Below, in pieces: positions 55,031 to 60,691 of a stretch of DNA of 64,000 nt (within the stretch, counting starts at the first letter, position 1; every line of letters begins with the position of its first letter). A model generated the notes under the pieces. The model did no database searches, had not been told where the DNA came from, and saw only the letters and a list, made by a program, of their open reading frames with translations. Source of the stretch: Terriglobus sp. TAA 43. Its GTDB lineage: Bacteria; Acidobacteriota; Terriglobia; Terriglobales; Acidobacteriaceae. Both the position numbers and the translations under genes were made by a program. The stretch lies in NCBI RefSeq assembly GCF_000800015.1, contig NZ_JUGR01000001.1, positions 3,286,001 through 3,350,000 on the forward strand, read 5' to 3'.

Positions 55031-55345
55031 TTATCTGGGTTCATCCGGATGCGCCGTCTCTTCGCGCTTCTCGATGGACTTATGCTTGCGTACTTTGTTG
55101 GCAACGACGCCACCGGTCGCGCCTACACCTGCTCCGACAACTGCCCCTACCGGGCCACCTACAAGTGCGCCTGTAGCTGCGCCACCCGCGGCACTGCCGC
55201 CAACGATCTTCGCCTTGTTGTGATGCTTCGCGTCGTGTTCTTCCACCTGGGCTTTGGCATCGGCATGAGATTCCTGCGCCATTACTGCAAAGGGAGCCAA
55301 CATTCCTGCCACTGCAATCGCTGCTGCCATTTTCTTCATGAACAT
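55031..55345 (-). CDS. Secreted glycine-zipper protein
   Basis: A 104-residue relative of the proteins at 16131 and 19297: signal peptide (MKKMAAAIAVAGMLAPFAVM), a His/Lys/Asp-rich stretch (EEHDAKHHNKAKIVGG) and a glycine zipper (GAATGALVGGPVGAVVGAG), then a basic tail. The role is unknown. It splits trpC-trpF from trpB and divides the aromatic cluster into two transcription units. Several ATG codons lie close together (55345, 55339); a GGGAGAG site fits 55345. Confidence 0.7.
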   Translation of the reverse strand: MFMKKMAAAIAVAGMLAPFAVMAQESHADAKAQVEEHDAKHHNKAKIVGGSAAGGAATGALVGGPVGAVVGAGVGATGGVVANKVRKHKSIEKREETAHPDEPR

Positions 55346-55464
55346 CGCATCTCTCCCGCGAGGCCGTTTGGGGGACCGGCCAACGCACGTGATGTGGATG
55401 GATGGGATCGCTGGCGGGAAGGTTTCCTTTTCAAACCGCGTAATTTCAGGTAGAGTTTTCCCTG

Positions 55465-55545
55465 ATGGTGCGTTCTGTCTATTTTTGGCGATTTACTTTC
55501 CGTTACGGGGCAACCCCCGCGGCGCCAATGGAACACGCTCTCTAA
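55465..55545 (+). CDS. Aromatic-rich leader peptide upstream of trpB
   Basis: A 26-codon frame (ATG 55465, TAA 55543-55545). Codons 6-14 (55480-55506) read Tyr-Phe-Trp-Arg-Phe-Thr-Phe-Arg-Tyr, that is six aromatic residues in nine, covering all three aromatic amino acids. The rest contains Gly, Ala, Thr and Pro. An AGGTAGAG sequence is 13 bases upstream, so translation is plausible but not strong. It is placed 51 bases before a terminator hairpin and 119 bases before trpB, as expected for an attenuation leader. The downstream operon makes Trp, Phe and Tyr, which matches the amino acids tested by the peptide. Confidence 0.5.
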   Translation: MVRSVYFWRFTFRYGATPAAPMEHAL

Positions 55546-55632
55546 GCAATCGCTGCCAAGACAGGGCAGCAGAGTAAGAGACAAAGATTCCCGGAGCCGC
55601 GGACCCACTAGGGCCGCGGTTTTTAGTTTTTG
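55517..55632 (+). promoter_or_regulatory. Putative transcription attenuator before trpB
   Basis: Terminator: CCGCGG (55597-55602), one bulged A, CCC (55604-55606), a four-base loop, GGG (55611-55613) and CCGCGG (55614-55619), then TTTTTAGTTTTT. Antiterminator: CCGCGGC at 55517-55523, inside the leader frame ten codons after the aromatic run, pairs exactly with GCCGCGG at 55596-55602, the 5' arm of the terminator; two more pairs (55525-55526 with 55593-55594) extend it past one mismatch. A third hairpin (GCTGCC at 55552, GGCAGC at 55565) lies between them. A ribosome stalled on the aromatic codons would leave 55517-55523 free to stop the terminator from forming; a ribosome reaching the stop would cover it. 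Confidence 0.55.
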
Positions 55633-55664
55633 AACGCAGAACAGACGTAGAGGGACAGCAAGAG

Positions 55665-56900
55665 ATGCCAGTTGTGGAATCGACAACGGAAGTAAGCCGC
55701 TCGCTGGGCGCGGGGCGCTTTGGCGCGTACGGCGGCCGCTATGTGCCGGAGACGCTGATGGCGGCGCTGCTGGAACTGGAACGGGCCTACGTGGAGGCGC
55801 GCGACGACGCAGAGTTTCAGGCAGAGCTTGCAGACCTGCTAAAGCATTACGTGGGACGCCCCACACCGCTGTATTACGCAAAGCGTTTGAGCCAGGAGCT
55901 TGGCGGGGCGCAGATCTATCTGAAGCGTGAAGACCTGCTGCATACCGGTGCACACAAGATCAACAATGCGCTGGGACAGGGCCTGTTAGCGAAGCGGATG
56001 GGCAAGAAGCGCATCATCGCGGAAACGGGCGCGGGGCAGCATGGCGTTGCGACGGCTACAGTCTGCGCGTTGCTTGGCCTTGATTGCGTGATCTACATGG
56101 GCGAAGAGGACATGCGTCGGCAGGACCTGAATGTACTGCGAATGCGTCTTCTGGGCGCTGAAGTGCGCGGCGTGTCCGCTGGTTCGGCCACGCTGAAAGA
56201 TGCCATCAACGAAGCGATGCGTGACTGGGTCACGAACGTCCGGGACACGTTTTACATCCTGGGTTCGGCGCTTGGATCGCATCCGTATCCGACGATGGTG
56301 CGCGACTTCCATCGCGTGATCAGCAAGGAAGCGAAGCAGCAGTTTGCCGAGCAGGTGGGCCGTAATCCCGATGTGGTGATTGCGTGCGTGGGCGGCGGAT
56401 CAAATGCAATCGGTGCGTTCTACGAGTTCATACCGGATGCGAATGTTCGCCTGATTGGTGTTGAGGCTGGCGGTCGCGGTACGGCGCTTGGAGAGCATGC
56501 TGCGCGTTTCAGCGGCGGTTTTCCCGGTGTGCTGCAGGGCACGTACAGCTACGTATTGCAGGACGATGCGGGGCAGGTGGCTTCCACGCATTCAGTGAGT
56601 GCAGGCCTAGACTATGCCAGCGTTGGCCCGGAACATGCCATGCTGCATGACCAGAAGCGCGCGGAGTATGTCAGCGCTACAGATGATGAAGCCCTGCACG
56701 CGGTGAAGGTGCTGGCGCAGACCGAGGGTATTCTGCCTGCGTTGGAGTCTGCACATGCTGTCGCACATGCGATCAAAGTCGCGCCAACCTTGGGTAAAGA
56801 CAAGATCATCATGATTAACGTGAGTGGTCGCGGCGACAAGGACATGGGCATTTTGGCGAAAGAGATGCAACTGCGCGGAGCTGAAGGGAAGGGTTTGTAA
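55665..56900 (+). CDS. trpB: Tryptophan synthase beta subunit
   Basis: A 411-residue PLP enzyme that joins indole to serine. It contains the PLP-lysine motif [13 protein letters not shown], the early [16 protein letters not shown], the phosphate-binding [12 protein letters not shown] and the C-terminal [13 protein letters not shown]. It forms the alpha2-beta2 complex with TrpA. The start is ATG 55665 after an AGGGACAG site. It is the first structural gene after the attenuator, and trpA follows without any gap. Confidence 0.97.
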
Positions 56901-57662
56901 GTGGCGATTGATTTCTCGAACAAGCCTGGACTGGTTGTCTATCTGACTGCAGGTGATCCATCTCTTGATGCGACCTATGACATTGCTCTTGCAGCGATCG
57001 ACAACGGTGCGCAGGTGCTGGAGCTGGGTGTGCCGTTCAGCGATCCTCTGGCCGATGGGCCGGTAATTCAGCGAGCCAGTGAGCGCGCCGTGGCTCGTGG
57101 CGTGCGTTTGAGCGATGTACTGGCGTTGGCGAAGAAGATTCGTGAAGCAAGGCCGCAGGCGGGCATCATCCTGTTTAGCTATCTGAATCCGGTGGTTCGC
57201 ATGGGCCTACCGGACTTCTGCAAGGCCGCGAAGGACGCGGGTGCTGACGGCGTTCTGCTGACGGACATGATTGTTGAGGAAGCAGGCGAATATCTGGCGG
57301 AGATGGCCAAGAATGATCTGGCGCCGGTGTTCCTGGCTGCGCCCACCTCTCCGGACGAGCGTTTGAAGGCCATCGCGGAGCATAGCAAGGGCTTCGTTTA
57401 TGCCATTTCGCGGGTAGGCATTACGGGGACCCAGGCGCAGGTTGCCTCCGACGCGGAGTCGCTGGTGGCGCGGTTGAAGCAATTCGCGAAGATTCCGGTG
57501 GCGGTGGGTTTTGGCATCTCCACGGCGGAGCATGTACGCTCGGTGAGCGAATTTGCGGATGCGGCGATTGTCGGCAGCGCAATTGTGAAGTTGATCGAAG
57601 ACAGCAAGGCCGGTGAAGAGGCCACAAATGTTGGGAAATTCGTGAAGTCTTTGCGGTCGTAG
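56901..57662 (+). CDS. trpA: Tryptophan synthase alpha subunit
   Basis: A 253-residue TIM barrel that splits indole-3-glycerol phosphate. Catalytic Glu is in VLELGVPFSDPLADGPVIQ, with the Asp in DGVLLTDMIVEEA. The phosphate site VGFGISTAEHV is intact. The GTG start at 56901 directly follows the trpB stop, so translation is coupled. The last residues are a short basic tail. Confidence 0.95.
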   Translation: MAIDFSNKPGLVVYLTAGDPSLDATYDIALAAIDNGAQVLELGVPFSDPLADGPVIQRASERAVARGVRLSDVLALAKKIREARPQAGIILFSYLNPVVRMGLPDFCKAAKDAGADGVLLTDMIVEEAGEYLAEMAKNDLAPVFLAAPTSPDERLKAIAEHSKGFVYAISRVGITGTQAQVASDAESLVARLKQFAKIPVAVGFGISTAEHVRSVSEFADAAIVGSAIVKLIEDSKAGEEATNVGKFVKSLRS

Positions 57663-57714: not shown

Positions 57715-57978
57715 ATGGAGATTGCAGACTGGCGGCAGAAGATCGACGGTATCGACGAGCAGATCGTCAAGCTCCTGTGCGAGCGCGCAGCGGCAGCCGC
57801 AGCCATTGGCGAGTTGAAGTCGCATAGCGGCAGCAACATCTACGAGCCAGAGCGCGAACAGGCCGTTCTGGCACACGTCGCCGCAAGCAACACGGGCGAG
57901 ATTCCGCAGGCCGAACTGGCCGATATTTACGAACGCATCATGGACGTGATGCGTGGCTTGCAGCGCAAGAAGGCGTAA
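57715..57978 (+). CDS. Chorismate mutase (AroQ type, stand-alone)
   Basis: An 87-residue chorismate mutase of the all-helical AroQ class. Typical features are WRQKIDGIDEQIVKLLCER (first helix, catalytic Arg), the Lys in IGELK, and YEPEREQAVLAHV. It turns chorismate to prephenate for Phe and Tyr. It is not fused to prephenate dehydratase or DAHP synthase. It follows trpA by 52 bases; AGAGGGTAACG precedes the ATG. The same transcript therefore serves Trp, Phe and Tyr branches. Confidence 0.93.
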   Translation: MEIADWRQKIDGIDEQIVKLLCERAAAAAAIGELKSHSGSNIYEPEREQAVLAHVAASNTGEIPQAELADIYERIMDVMRGLQRKKA

Positions 57979-58048: not shown

Positions 58049-59068
58049 ATGATCGTGGTGATGCAGGGAACCGCCAGCAGGGAGCAGATCCAGGCGGTAA
58101 TTGAGCAGATGGTGGAGCTCGGCTTCAATGTGCACCGCACCAGCGGTGAAGGTCAGATGATCCTGGCGGGCGTGGGTACGCCGGCAGCTTTTGATGTGGC
58201 GGAGTTTCAGGTACTCGCCGGTGTGCAGACGGCGTATCGCATCTCATCGCCGTACAAACTGGCTGGTCGCGGCTTCCGTCCCGAGGGAACGGTCATCACC
58301 TTCCCCAACGGCGTGAAGGTGGGCGGCGAAAACGTAACCATCATGGCGGGGCCTTGCTCTGTGGAATCGCGTGAGCAGATTCGCCTATCCGCGCAGCAGG
58401 TGAAGGCCGCGGGTGGTCAGTTCCTGCGTGGTGGCGCATACAAGCCGCGTTCTTCGCCGTACAGCTTCCAGGGCATGGGTGTGGAAGGTCTGAAGCTTCT
58501 CCGCGAAGTGGGCGATGAGACTGGCCTGCTGGTCATCACGGAAGTGATGGAGATTTCGCAGATTGAAGTGATGCTGCCGTACATCGACTGCTTCCAGGTG
58601 GGCGCGCGCAATATGCAGAACTTCAACCTGCTGCGTGAACTAGGCCACGTACGCAAGCCGGTGCTGCTGAAGCGCGGCATCGCGGCGACGATTGAAGAGG
58701 TTCTGCTGTCGGCTGAGTACATCCTGTCTGGTGGCAACTATGACCTGATGCTTTGCGAGCGTGGCATCCGCACCTTTGAGACGTTCACGCGCAACACGAT
58801 GGACATCTCGGCTATCCCGGTGCTGAAGTCGTTGACACACCTGCCGGTATTCGGCGATCCGTCGCACGGCGTGGGCAAGCGCGAGTTCGTACCGCCCATG
58901 GCGCTGGCTTCGGTTGCTGCCGGTGCAGACGGTTTGCTGATGGAGATGCACCCGAACCCCGAAAAGGCTATGAGCGATGGCGCTCAGTCGCTGTTCCCGG
59001 AGCAACTGGAAAAGCTGGTGGAACAGCTTCGTCAGCTTGCGCCGATCGTGGGACGCACGGTCGCGTAA
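58049..59068 (+). CDS. aroF: 3-deoxy-7-phosphoheptulonate synthase (DAHP synthase, AroF-type)
   Basis: A 339-residue type I-beta DAHP synthase, the first step of the shikimate pathway. Residues 1 to about 70 form a ferredoxin-like regulatory domain ([20 protein letters not shown]), then the barrel starts with [16 protein letters not shown] and contains [45 protein letters not shown] and [11 protein letters not shown], with conserved metal and PEP ligands. AAGGAAC lies upstream of ATG 58049; the frame extends upstream to 57953 but overlaps the mutase gene. The N-terminal domain may bind an aromatic amino acid for feedback control, as in Thermotoga. Confidence 0.94.
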
Positions 59069-59088
59069 TCCATCGCGCCAGTATGTGC

Positions 59089-59120
59089 AAAGGCCGTGCT
59101 CTTCGGGGCACGGCTTTTGT
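59089..59120 (+). terminator. Terminator after aroF
   Basis: GCCGTGC (59093-59099) and GCACGGC (59108-59114) with an eight-base loop, followed by TTTTGTTC. Some transcription may stop here before the next two genes, which could also have their own promoter. Confidence 0.7.
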
Positions 59121-59171
59121 TCATTGCATGGAACGACGCGCTACACTCAAAACCAACAGGAGACAGCAGTC

Positions 59172-59855
59172 GTGAGTGAGTGGGTAAAGCTGACCGCATC
59201 CGATGGAGTGGAACTGAGCGCGTACGTGTCGCGTCCTGCAGGCGAGCCGAAGGGCGCGCTGGTGGTGGTGCAAGAGATCTTTGGCATCAACGATCACATC
59301 CGCGCGGTAACGGATGAGTGGGCAGCCGAGGGATATATGAGCATTGCGCCCGCCATCTTTGACCGCATTGAGAAGGATGTATTTCTCAACTATGACGAAG
59401 CAGGTTGGGCGAAGGCAGGCCCGCTTTACCAGAAGCTTGATGTGGCGAAATCTCTGCTGGATGTAGAGGCGGCAGTGGCTTGGCTGCGTACCCAGGCGGA
59501 TGTGAAGGTGGGCGTTGTGGGTTACTGCTACGGCGGATCAATGGCCTGGGTTACATCGTGCCGGTCGAAGATTGATGCGGCAGTGGGTTATTACGGCGGC
59601 CTTATTCCGAGCCTGGTGCAGGAGACGCCGCGCAATCCCATCATGCTGCACTTTGGGGGTGCGGACACGCATATCCCCGCAGAGGCGATTGCAAAGATTC
59701 AACTGGCGCATCCAGAAGTGCCGGTGTTCTTGTATCCCGGTGCGGGCCATGCGTTCAATCGGAAGCCCGATCCGAACAGCTACGTGGCGGATGCCGCGGA
59801 TTTGGCGAAGCGCCGCTCTGTACTCTTCTTTGACGAGCACCTTGCGGCAAAATGA
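59172..59855 (+). CDS. Dienelactone hydrolase-family protein
   Basis: A 227-residue alpha/beta hydrolase. The nucleophile is the Cys in VVGYCYGGSMAW, a hallmark of dienelactone hydrolases, with Asp in FGGADTHIPAE and His in GAGHAFNRK. It begins KLTASDGVELSAYVSRP and includes GALVVVQEIFGINDHI. The start is GTG at 59172 after AGGAGACAGCAGTC. Its stop overlaps the tyrA start by four bases (ATGA), so the two are translated together. A role in aromatic metabolism is not known; opening of a lactone is possible. Confidence 0.88.
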   Translation: MSEWVKLTASDGVELSAYVSRPAGEPKGALVVVQEIFGINDHIRAVTDEWAAEGYMSIAPAIFDRIEKDVFLNYDEAGWAKAGPLYQKLDVAKSLLDVEAAVAWLRTQADVKVGVVGYCYGGSMAWVTSCRSKIDAAVGYYGGLIPSLVQETPRNPIMLHFGGADTHIPAEAIAKIQLAHPEVPVFLYPGAGHAFNRKPDPNSYVADAADLAKRRSVLFFDEHLAAK

Positions 59856-60691
59856 AATCGGTTCTCATCATCGGCACAGGGCTCATCGGTGCATCGGTGG
59901 GCCTTGCGCTGCGTAATGCTGGATTTGCCGGTTCCATCACAGGCATTGATGCCAGTGGGGACGAGCTGAAGGCTGCAGAGGCCTCTGGTGCGATTGATCG
60001 CGCGGCGCGTTCTGCAGAGGAGCATCGTTCGGCAATTGCTGCGTCTGATGTGATTGTTTTGGCTGTTCCGGTGATGGCGATTCTGCAGTGGATGCAGGGC
60101 ATCGCGCCTCAATTGCGACCGGGCCAGTTGGTGACGGACGCGGGCTCCACCAAGAGCGAGATCGTGCGCGCGGCAGAACGACTTATGCCTGAGACCTTCC
60201 TTCCCGGGCATCCTATGGCAGGCAAGGAGAGCTGCGGCGCGACGTTGGCGGAGGCCTCGCTTTTTCGTGGAGCGACGTGGATTTTCACTCCCATGCATGA
60301 GACCACTGCCATTGAAGCTGAGTGGCGCGGATGGGTGGAGAAGTTTGGCGCGAAGCTGCTGGACATGGATGCCGCACGGCACGACGAAATTTGCGCGTGG
60401 GTAAGCCACATGCCGCAGATGGTGTCCACGGCGATGTCGGCCATGTTGGAAGACAAGTTTGGCGATTCTCCAGAATTGCGGGCCATTGGCGGCCGCGCTC
60501 TCCGTGAGATGACGCGGCTCGGCAGTAGCCCGTTCAGCATGTGGCGTGACATTGCCCACACGAATCAGGAGAACATCGCCGAGACGTTGTTGACGCTGGA
60601 GCAGCGACTGCAACACCTGCGCGAGAACCTGAAGACGCCGGAACTGCGCGAAGAGTTCGGGCGCGCCAACGCATTTCGCCGGCAGCTTTAG
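59852..60691 (+). CDS. tyrA: Prephenate/arogenate dehydrogenase
   Basis: A 279-residue NAD(P)-dependent dehydrogenase that makes 4-hydroxyphenylpyruvate (or tyrosine from arogenate). The dinucleotide motif is [15 protein letters not shown], the loop reads [10 protein letters not shown] (conserved His), and [17 protein letters not shown] plus the Arg in [17 protein letters not shown] complete the active site. There is no fused chorismate mutase or ACT domain, so it is a minimal TyrA. ATG 59852 overlaps the hydrolase stop. It is the last clear aromatic gene in the cluster. Confidence 0.92.

Follow-up and report, generated by a model that had tools for sequence, protein, structure and literature searches.

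The trpL and pheL attenuators of E. coli place the cognate codons of a leader peptide over strand 1 of four RNA strands, which pair as 1:2, 2:3 and 3:4 and end in an intrinsic terminator, and enterobacteria also have leaders with mixed codons, of the Thr/Ile and Ile/Val/Leu kinds. The T-box riboswitches for Trp, Tyr and Phe read aminoacylation and often act on terminators. A leader peptide before aroF of Corynebacterium glutamicum, AroR, was reportedly described by Neshat et al. in 2014. The existence of the E. coli trpL and pheL attenuators is also noted in the part of PMC11802643 drawn on here, in which attenuation by AroR, the Phe-Tyr-Phe leader preceding aroF (PMC11802643, PMC4046766), is enhanced by ribosome stalling on Phe limitation and shows no response to Tyr. 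The consulted portions of other sources give a candidate uORF with Phe codons and a terminator upstream of Acholeplasma aroF, the uORFC-13-1 motif (PMC8632094); putative attenuators of the Merino database ahead of tyrA supraoperons (PMC1173090, Table 7); and a leader peptide with a function in trans, peTrpL of Sinorhizobium (PMC7298713).

The region upstream of trpB in the window, the stretch of 64,000 nucleotides that was analysed, is very probably a ribosome-mediated transcription attenuator of the trp/phe type, controlling trpB-trpA-aroQ-aroF-tyrA. The parts characteristic of the trp type can be recognized by comparison of sequences: an aromatic leader ORF, a putative 1:2 pairing over the control codons, a competing 2:3 pairing and a predicted 3:4 terminator with a T tract. 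Attenuation by the ribosome is an established kind of control, here with mixed codons for three residues and before several operons; mixed-residue leaders are not new, since the Phe-Tyr-Phe leader AroR stands before aroF in C. glutamicum. AroR appears to be the nearest described relative, by likeness of function and codons only, being likewise a ribosome-mediated attenuator whose aromatic codons are mixed and which precedes a DAHP synthase gene. It differs, by description and not by sequence, in its single gene context and its other phylum, and a Trp codon is not mentioned in the part of its description used here, whereas the acidobacterial family precedes four kinds of operon and usually has all three codon kinds (Phe, Tyr and Trp in 75 of the 98 aligned leaders defined below). 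With trpL and pheL the acidobacterial leaders share the cognate codons over strand 1, the four strands and the intrinsic terminator; unlike these single-amino-acid leaders they are mixed, mostly without a Shine-Dalgarno-like site. The uORFC-13-1 motif is alike in its Phe uORF with a terminator ahead of aroF but, as far as its partial description goes, differs in being limited to Acholeplasma and environmental sequences and in having at least one Phe codon in a U run. The Merino-database predictions are alike in standing before aro/tyrA clusters and differ in that the part of the table consulted has no leader-peptide analysis and no acidobacterium among the rows listed. No published description of this attenuator family was found in the literature searched, and further material may be contained in Vitreschak 2004, Panina 2001 and Lopatovskaya 2010. 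The T-box likewise shares the aminoacylation readout and the control of a terminator, and was rejected as a candidate: Rfam scans of the window and of the relatives' loci gave no T-box match, and a translated ORF is conserved instead. Rfam 15 gave no match of a leader family, Trp_leader included, above the gathering score in the window or in 15 relatives' loci, and at E up to 10 one chance match in window 55400-55680.

The leader ORF of 26 codons, MVRSVYFWRFTFRYGATPAAPMEHAL, occupies 55465..55545 of the plus strand, as the earlier note had claimed, and six of its nine codons 6-14 are aromatic (Y6 F7 W8 R F10 T F12 R Y14; 55480..55506, plus strand, read from the sequence). The Trp8 codon (55486-55488, plus strand) lies upstream of the predicted stall window, with F10, F12 and Y14 inside it. 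Strand 1, the 5' arm of the putative anti-antiterminator (55500..55510, plus strand), overlaps codons 12-16 and is delimited by the fold and by 1:2 covariation in relatives. Strand 2 (55515..55534, plus strand), delimited by folds and the permutation test, would pair through 55515-55522 with strand 1 and through 55517-55534 with strand 3. The latter (55588..55606, plus strand) would pair either through 55588-55602 with strand 2, as the antiterminator, or through 55593-55606 with strand 4, as the terminator, which the sequence and the fold complete at 55611..55631 (plus strand) by strand 4 (55611-55623) and the T-rich tail TTTTTAGTTTTT (55620-55631). The heptamer GCCGCGG of the terminator 5' arm was located at 55596-55602, the 3' arm and T tract agree with the note as well, and so does its distance of about 40 nt between the terminator and the trpB ATG at 55665. 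The complementary CCGCGGC was misplaced there as lying ten codons later, since it covers 55517-55523 and begins ten bases after the last Tyr codon (55504-55506). The terminator stem has a one-base bulge, and a strict gapless terminator scan of the window did not list it. For the whole window leader the fold combines 1:2 with 3:4 (z -3.5, 0 of 200 dinucleotide shuffles as good), and the 2:3 fragment, that is, the piece from 55512 which a ribosome near codons 12-13 would free while strand 4 is still unmade, reaches z -4.3, with 1 of 200 dinucleotide shuffles as good.

The order trpB-trpA-chorismate mutase-aroF-tyrA is borne out by a domain match for each gene: trpB, the first structural gene (55665..56900; TIGR00263, above its cut-off), trpA (56901..57662; PF00290, E 4e-81), the aroQ-type chorismate mutase (57715..57978; PF01817, E 4e-23), aroF for the DAHP synthase with a ferredoxin-like domain, starting at ATG 58049 (58049..59068; PF00793, PF18152), and tyrA for prephenate dehydrogenase (59852..60691; PF02153, PF20463), all on the plus strand, with an extra dienelactone-hydrolase-family gene between aroF and tyrA (58977-59855; PF01738, E 3e-42). 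The operon downstream serves the synthesis of the amino acids for which the leader has codons. Between trpF and the leader there is a small minus-strand ORF (55031-55345) with a weak glycine-zipper match below the cut-off (PF13488), and this opposite-strand ORF separates trpB from trpC-trpF. The trpE gene of the window genome is unlinked (C1:2857130), and no leader of the family was noticed before it in the model search at E <= 1.

Among the 61 genomes in which trpB was searched, a homologous leader ORF precedes it in 19 of the 19 same-genus genomes and on two further Acidobacteriaceae contigs (L031 and L032), and no such ORF was seen before trpB at eleven loci (L020-L030) belonging to other genera of this family. 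Two covariance models, R1 from 21 leaders and R2 from 76 leaders, were built for a wider search. In the window genome R1 gave at E <= 1 only two good matches, the trpB leader and C2:99141-99295 (E 3e-12; locus L141:642-796), MTQFTQPASFWYRYCFTGAALADSAVLKH, which stands before aroK (shikimate kinase, PF01202); a third, weak match at C1:2654009 (E 0.4; L160) is without an aromatic ORF and was rejected as a leader. The attenuator element is thus not confined to the trpB operon, as this genome has a further copy ahead of aroK. At least two matches were found in 18 of the 19 same-genus genomes, the exception, G014, being a draft, and the second matches fetched from nine of these genomes (L141-L149) all stand before aroK. 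In the family R1 matched at E <= 0.01 in 135 of 300 genomes and 30 of 79 genera, and R2 matched at E <= 0.001 in 157 of 298 genomes of the order, 84 of 299 of the class, including the families f5, f7 and f12, and 38 of 396 of the phylum; the samples contain near relatives, so that these rates are not estimates of prevalence. Four of the phylum matches lie outside the class (L266-L269; E 8e-7 to 5e-4), with pheA- and aroF-like genes following all of them, and the three frames translated and read by eye, that of L267 not being among them, are rich in Phe/Tyr and without Trp (e.g., MFVDDRSRFYFYFYFPP...); these four may be distant or convergent members of the family.

The inspected leaders are followed by trpB-trpA-aroQ-aroF(-tyrA), by aroK, by aroF, or by aroQ and/or pheA with aroF, the labels coming from tblastn with reference proteins of the window, L141 and L188, among them one that we take to be PheA. 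By this sequence comparison, the window attenuator appears to be a member of a family of the phylum that precedes aroK, aroF and aroQ-pheA-aroF as well. At three loci from two genera (L177, L178 and L188), the leader-controlled aroQ or pheA-aroF genes lie near a gene that is presumably lpxC-like, judging by its sequence. The inspected set comprises 119 loci (L001-L019, L031, L032, L141-L200 minus L160 and L192, and L226-L265); the model matches were fetched in part, and the set leaves out L111-L140 and L201-L225, many of which are the same places. For L168 a second match on the other strand was dropped. Setting aside 20 near-duplicates, all of them checked, left 99 of the 119, and the removal of L259, whose Arg anchor was misplaced by the alignment although its ORF is itself aromatic, gave the 98 leaders, which were aligned on the conserved Arg codon as position 0.

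Loss or shift of the leader frame in relatives, which the earlier note had named as evidence against its reading, was found at none of the 119 inspected loci, each of which keeps an aromatic leader ORF. At least four aromatic codons in nine are present in 118 of them and three in L258, with the reservation that loci picked by models trained on aromatic leaders favour the finding of aromatic leaders. ATG is the start codon of 97 of the 98 aligned leaders, and in 87 the Arg anchor lies 11-13 codons downstream of the start. The aromatic frequency is 0.90 at position -3, 0.89 at -1, 0.89 at +1, 0.63 at +2 (57 of these codons being Trp) and 0.63 at +3, and it is low at -4 (0.11), -2 (0.06) and the Arg position (0.02). 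At this depth variability is much the same at all three codon positions (0.48, 0.50 and 0.54) and gives no frame signal; among 13 leaders of the genus, synonymous changes make up 100 of 187 single-base codon differences, 0.53 versus 0.27 expected, in pairs that are not independent. The conserved frame suggests that the leader ORF is translated.

Trp content was observed to differ with the operon. Within -10 to +5 a Trp codon occurs in 33 of 33 trpB, 20 of 20 aroK, 18 of 23 aroF and 5 of 21 aroQ/pheA leaders, and the difference between the trpB plus aroK leaders and the aroQ/pheA leaders has a Fisher p of 3e-12, in a test that does not fully remove relatedness. The first 20 residues at the 119 loci give a similar picture (trpB 42/42, aroK 21/21, aroF 21/27, aroQ/pheA 6/28). 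The contrast is partly confounded with family, because most of the aroQ/pheA leaders come from other families; within the window's own family the counts are 33/33, 20/20, 13/16 and 0/3 in the same order.

The seven complementary bases alone are weak evidence for the 2:3 pairing, since CCGCGG is its own reverse complement, and GC-rich palindromic hexamers are easily complementary, which speaks for a rival reading in which the region would hold just a promoter with a constitutive terminator or an mRNA-processing hairpin and the aromatic ORF would be a chance frame. Chance complementarity was ruled out, given that the leader ORF precedes trpB in 19 of 19 same-genus genomes and that the strands co-evolve in the 98 leaders. 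When the duplex energy of each leader's own strands was compared with that of permuted partners, z was -15.1 for 1:2, -13.2 for 2:3 and -14.8 for 3:4, and with permutation only within operon class and family -11.9, -9.2 and -11.4, each with 0 of 1000 permutations as extreme; such permutations do not fully remove relatedness, and 2:3 was not part of the model in this test. The control pairings 1:3 and 2:4 stayed near zero. A third control, 1:4, gave z -3.5 overall (0/1000) and 0.0 within class and family, which implies that relatedness alone can act on the statistic. On the alignments A2, of 21 rows, and A3, which is fitted to the model, two-sided changes in 1:2 and 3:4 affect 8 and 12 of the 19 pairs, and 0 of 500 shuffles reached any of five measures of their covariation. 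For 2:3 the base-pair covariation on A2 was uninformative, 398 of 500 shuffles reaching the observed percentage paired, because the GCGG:CCGC core is invariant or barely varies, so that the support for the antiterminator comes from the permutation tests and the folds. The compensatory changes that the earlier note had proposed to look for in relatives are thereby found, 1:2, 2:3 and 3:4 each co-evolving across the 98 leaders. With the frame, the codon positions and three co-evolving helices recurring before different operons in many genera, the explanation by a constitutive hairpin and a chance frame retains a negligible probability.

The same co-evolution bears on the proposal that the ORF encodes a small peptide acting in trans, like peTrpL of Sinorhizobium, with an incidental terminator. 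The precedent, as given in the part of PMC7298713 used here, and the synonymous share of 0.53 against 0.27, which points to selection on the peptide within the genus, speak for it. Against these stand the RNA strands, which co-evolve, and the peptide ends, N-termini and lengths (17 to 36 residues), which vary widely while the positions relative to strand 1 are kept, and this reading is accordingly held to be highly improbable; besides its part in attenuation, the peptide may have some further role in trans.

The attenuator reading further predicts where a ribosome should stall, and this was followed by equilibrium folds in which the sequence through 10 bases past the A-site codon was hidden and the upstream pairing of strand 3 was scored at P > 0.5. 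Such pairing is reached in 97-98 of the 98 leaders when the A-site codon is one of those from -3 to +1, in 94 at +2 and in 42 at +3, with no more than a modest decrease at the stall positions -9 to -4 (81 to 93 of 98); offsets of 7 and 13 shift the window by one codon. The predicted antitermination stall window thus coincides with the conserved aromatic codons, and by this modelling these codons are placed so that a stalled ribosome would cover strand 1 and not strand 2. The claim of the earlier note that the geometry fits ribosome-controlled attenuation is sustained by the conserved frame, the three co-evolving pairings and the folds around the stalled ribosome. In the folds with no ribosome, 2:3 is also predicted to win, with P > 0.5 in 78 of the 98 leaders and 0.93 in the window leader L001; as 2:3 is favoured at equilibrium, termination must depend on the folding order, with 1:2 and 3:4 forming faster.

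A different allocation of the control codons should be weighed here, namely that the attenuation is real and the window clade responds to Phe and Tyr only, Trp8 being ineffective and the trp genes being controlled through the Phe/Tyr supply. W8 of the window leader is situated five codons before the Arg anchor, outside the clear window of about -3 to +2, and 6 of the 33 trpB leaders have no Trp at -3 to +4. The AroR leader of C. glutamicum, with its Phe-Tyr-Phe codons, sets a precedent by acting on Phe limitation and not on Tyr, according to the part of PMC11802643 considered. However, all 33 trpB leaders, including those 6, keep Trp somewhere in -10 to +5, and with the ribosome at W8 the equilibrium fold of the window clade also gives the antiterminator (P 1.0 in L001). 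A response to Phe and Tyr only is on this evidence a serious possibility, with about one chance in three in our estimate, and the codons of the window leader suggest that it may sense all three aromatic amino acids.

A further alternative keeps the stall but changes its cause: the nascent peptide F-T-[FY]-R-[YF]-W would arrest the ribosome in a metabolite-dependent manner, as TnaC does, instead of slow decoding of aromatic codons. The peptide does show some conservation of this sort, with the non-aromatic Thr at -2, outside the stem, in 70 of the 98 leaders and the Arg at 11-13 codons from the start in 87 of 98, and Phe at -3 is encoded by TTT in 83 and by TTC in 2, against 111:129 for the other leader Phe codons, a bias that selection by the sequence model may inflate. 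Yet the Arg, through its pairing with the almost invariant GCGG in strand 2, is under constraint from the RNA; the TTT bias acts on codons and not on the peptide; and the peptide varies at -9 to -6 and at -4. Moreover, Phe and Tyr interchange freely at the key positions and Trp differs by downstream genes, which fits codon sensing, and arrest by the peptide is therefore considered unlikely.

For the preferred reading, attenuation by slow decoding of the aromatic codons, the proposed course of events is as follows. When the tRNAs for Phe, Tyr and Trp are charged, the ribosome would pass the aromatic codons and cover strand 2, leaving 3:4 to form the terminator; if no ribosome starts, 1:2 would form first and the terminator would form too. 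A ribosome waiting at F10 to Y14, and in most relatives also at the Trp two codons after the conserved Arg, would cover strand 1 and free strand 2 for pairing with strand 3 while strand 4 is still to be transcribed, and the polymerase would enter trpB. Of this scheme, comparison of sequences shows the conserved frame, the co-evolving strands, the placement of the aromatic codons with respect to strand 1 and the kind of genes that follow; the folding order and the response to starvation are inferred.

It may be suggested more tentatively, and with somewhat less than even confidence, that one acidobacterial attenuator family responds to the aromatic amino acids collectively. In this scenario the ancestor would be a Phe/Tyr leader of aroQ-pheA-aroF, copied to the trpB and aroK operons and re-tuned by Trp codons gained in the stall window. 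A single conserved RNA switch (F-T-[FY]-R-[YF]-W, a near-leaderless start and a TTT-biased first control codon) would then integrate three tRNA charging levels and coordinate a number of aromatic operons that are not linked to one another, the conserved nascent peptide perhaps playing a part as well. If so, one switch would be common to several aromatic operons, two of them in the window genome, and the codon content differing by operon product would represent a natural experiment on the gain and loss of control codons. The Phe/Tyr-only leaders before the pheA operons would be predicted to ignore Trp, and the trpB and aroK leaders to respond to it.

As to the start of the transcript, a strict two-hexamer promoter scan of the window found no promoter at the leader. 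In a search from -40 to -6 relative to the leader ATG, the best -10-like hexamer of 66 of the 98 leaders begins 18 to 13 bases upstream of that codon, and Shine-Dalgarno-like 4-mers are present in 6 of the 98. The position of the hexamer and the scarcity of such sites suggest that the leader transcripts are leaderless or nearly so, starting within a few bases of the ATG. In the window the -10-like hexamer, picked by eye, is TAGAGT at 55451..55456 of the plus strand.
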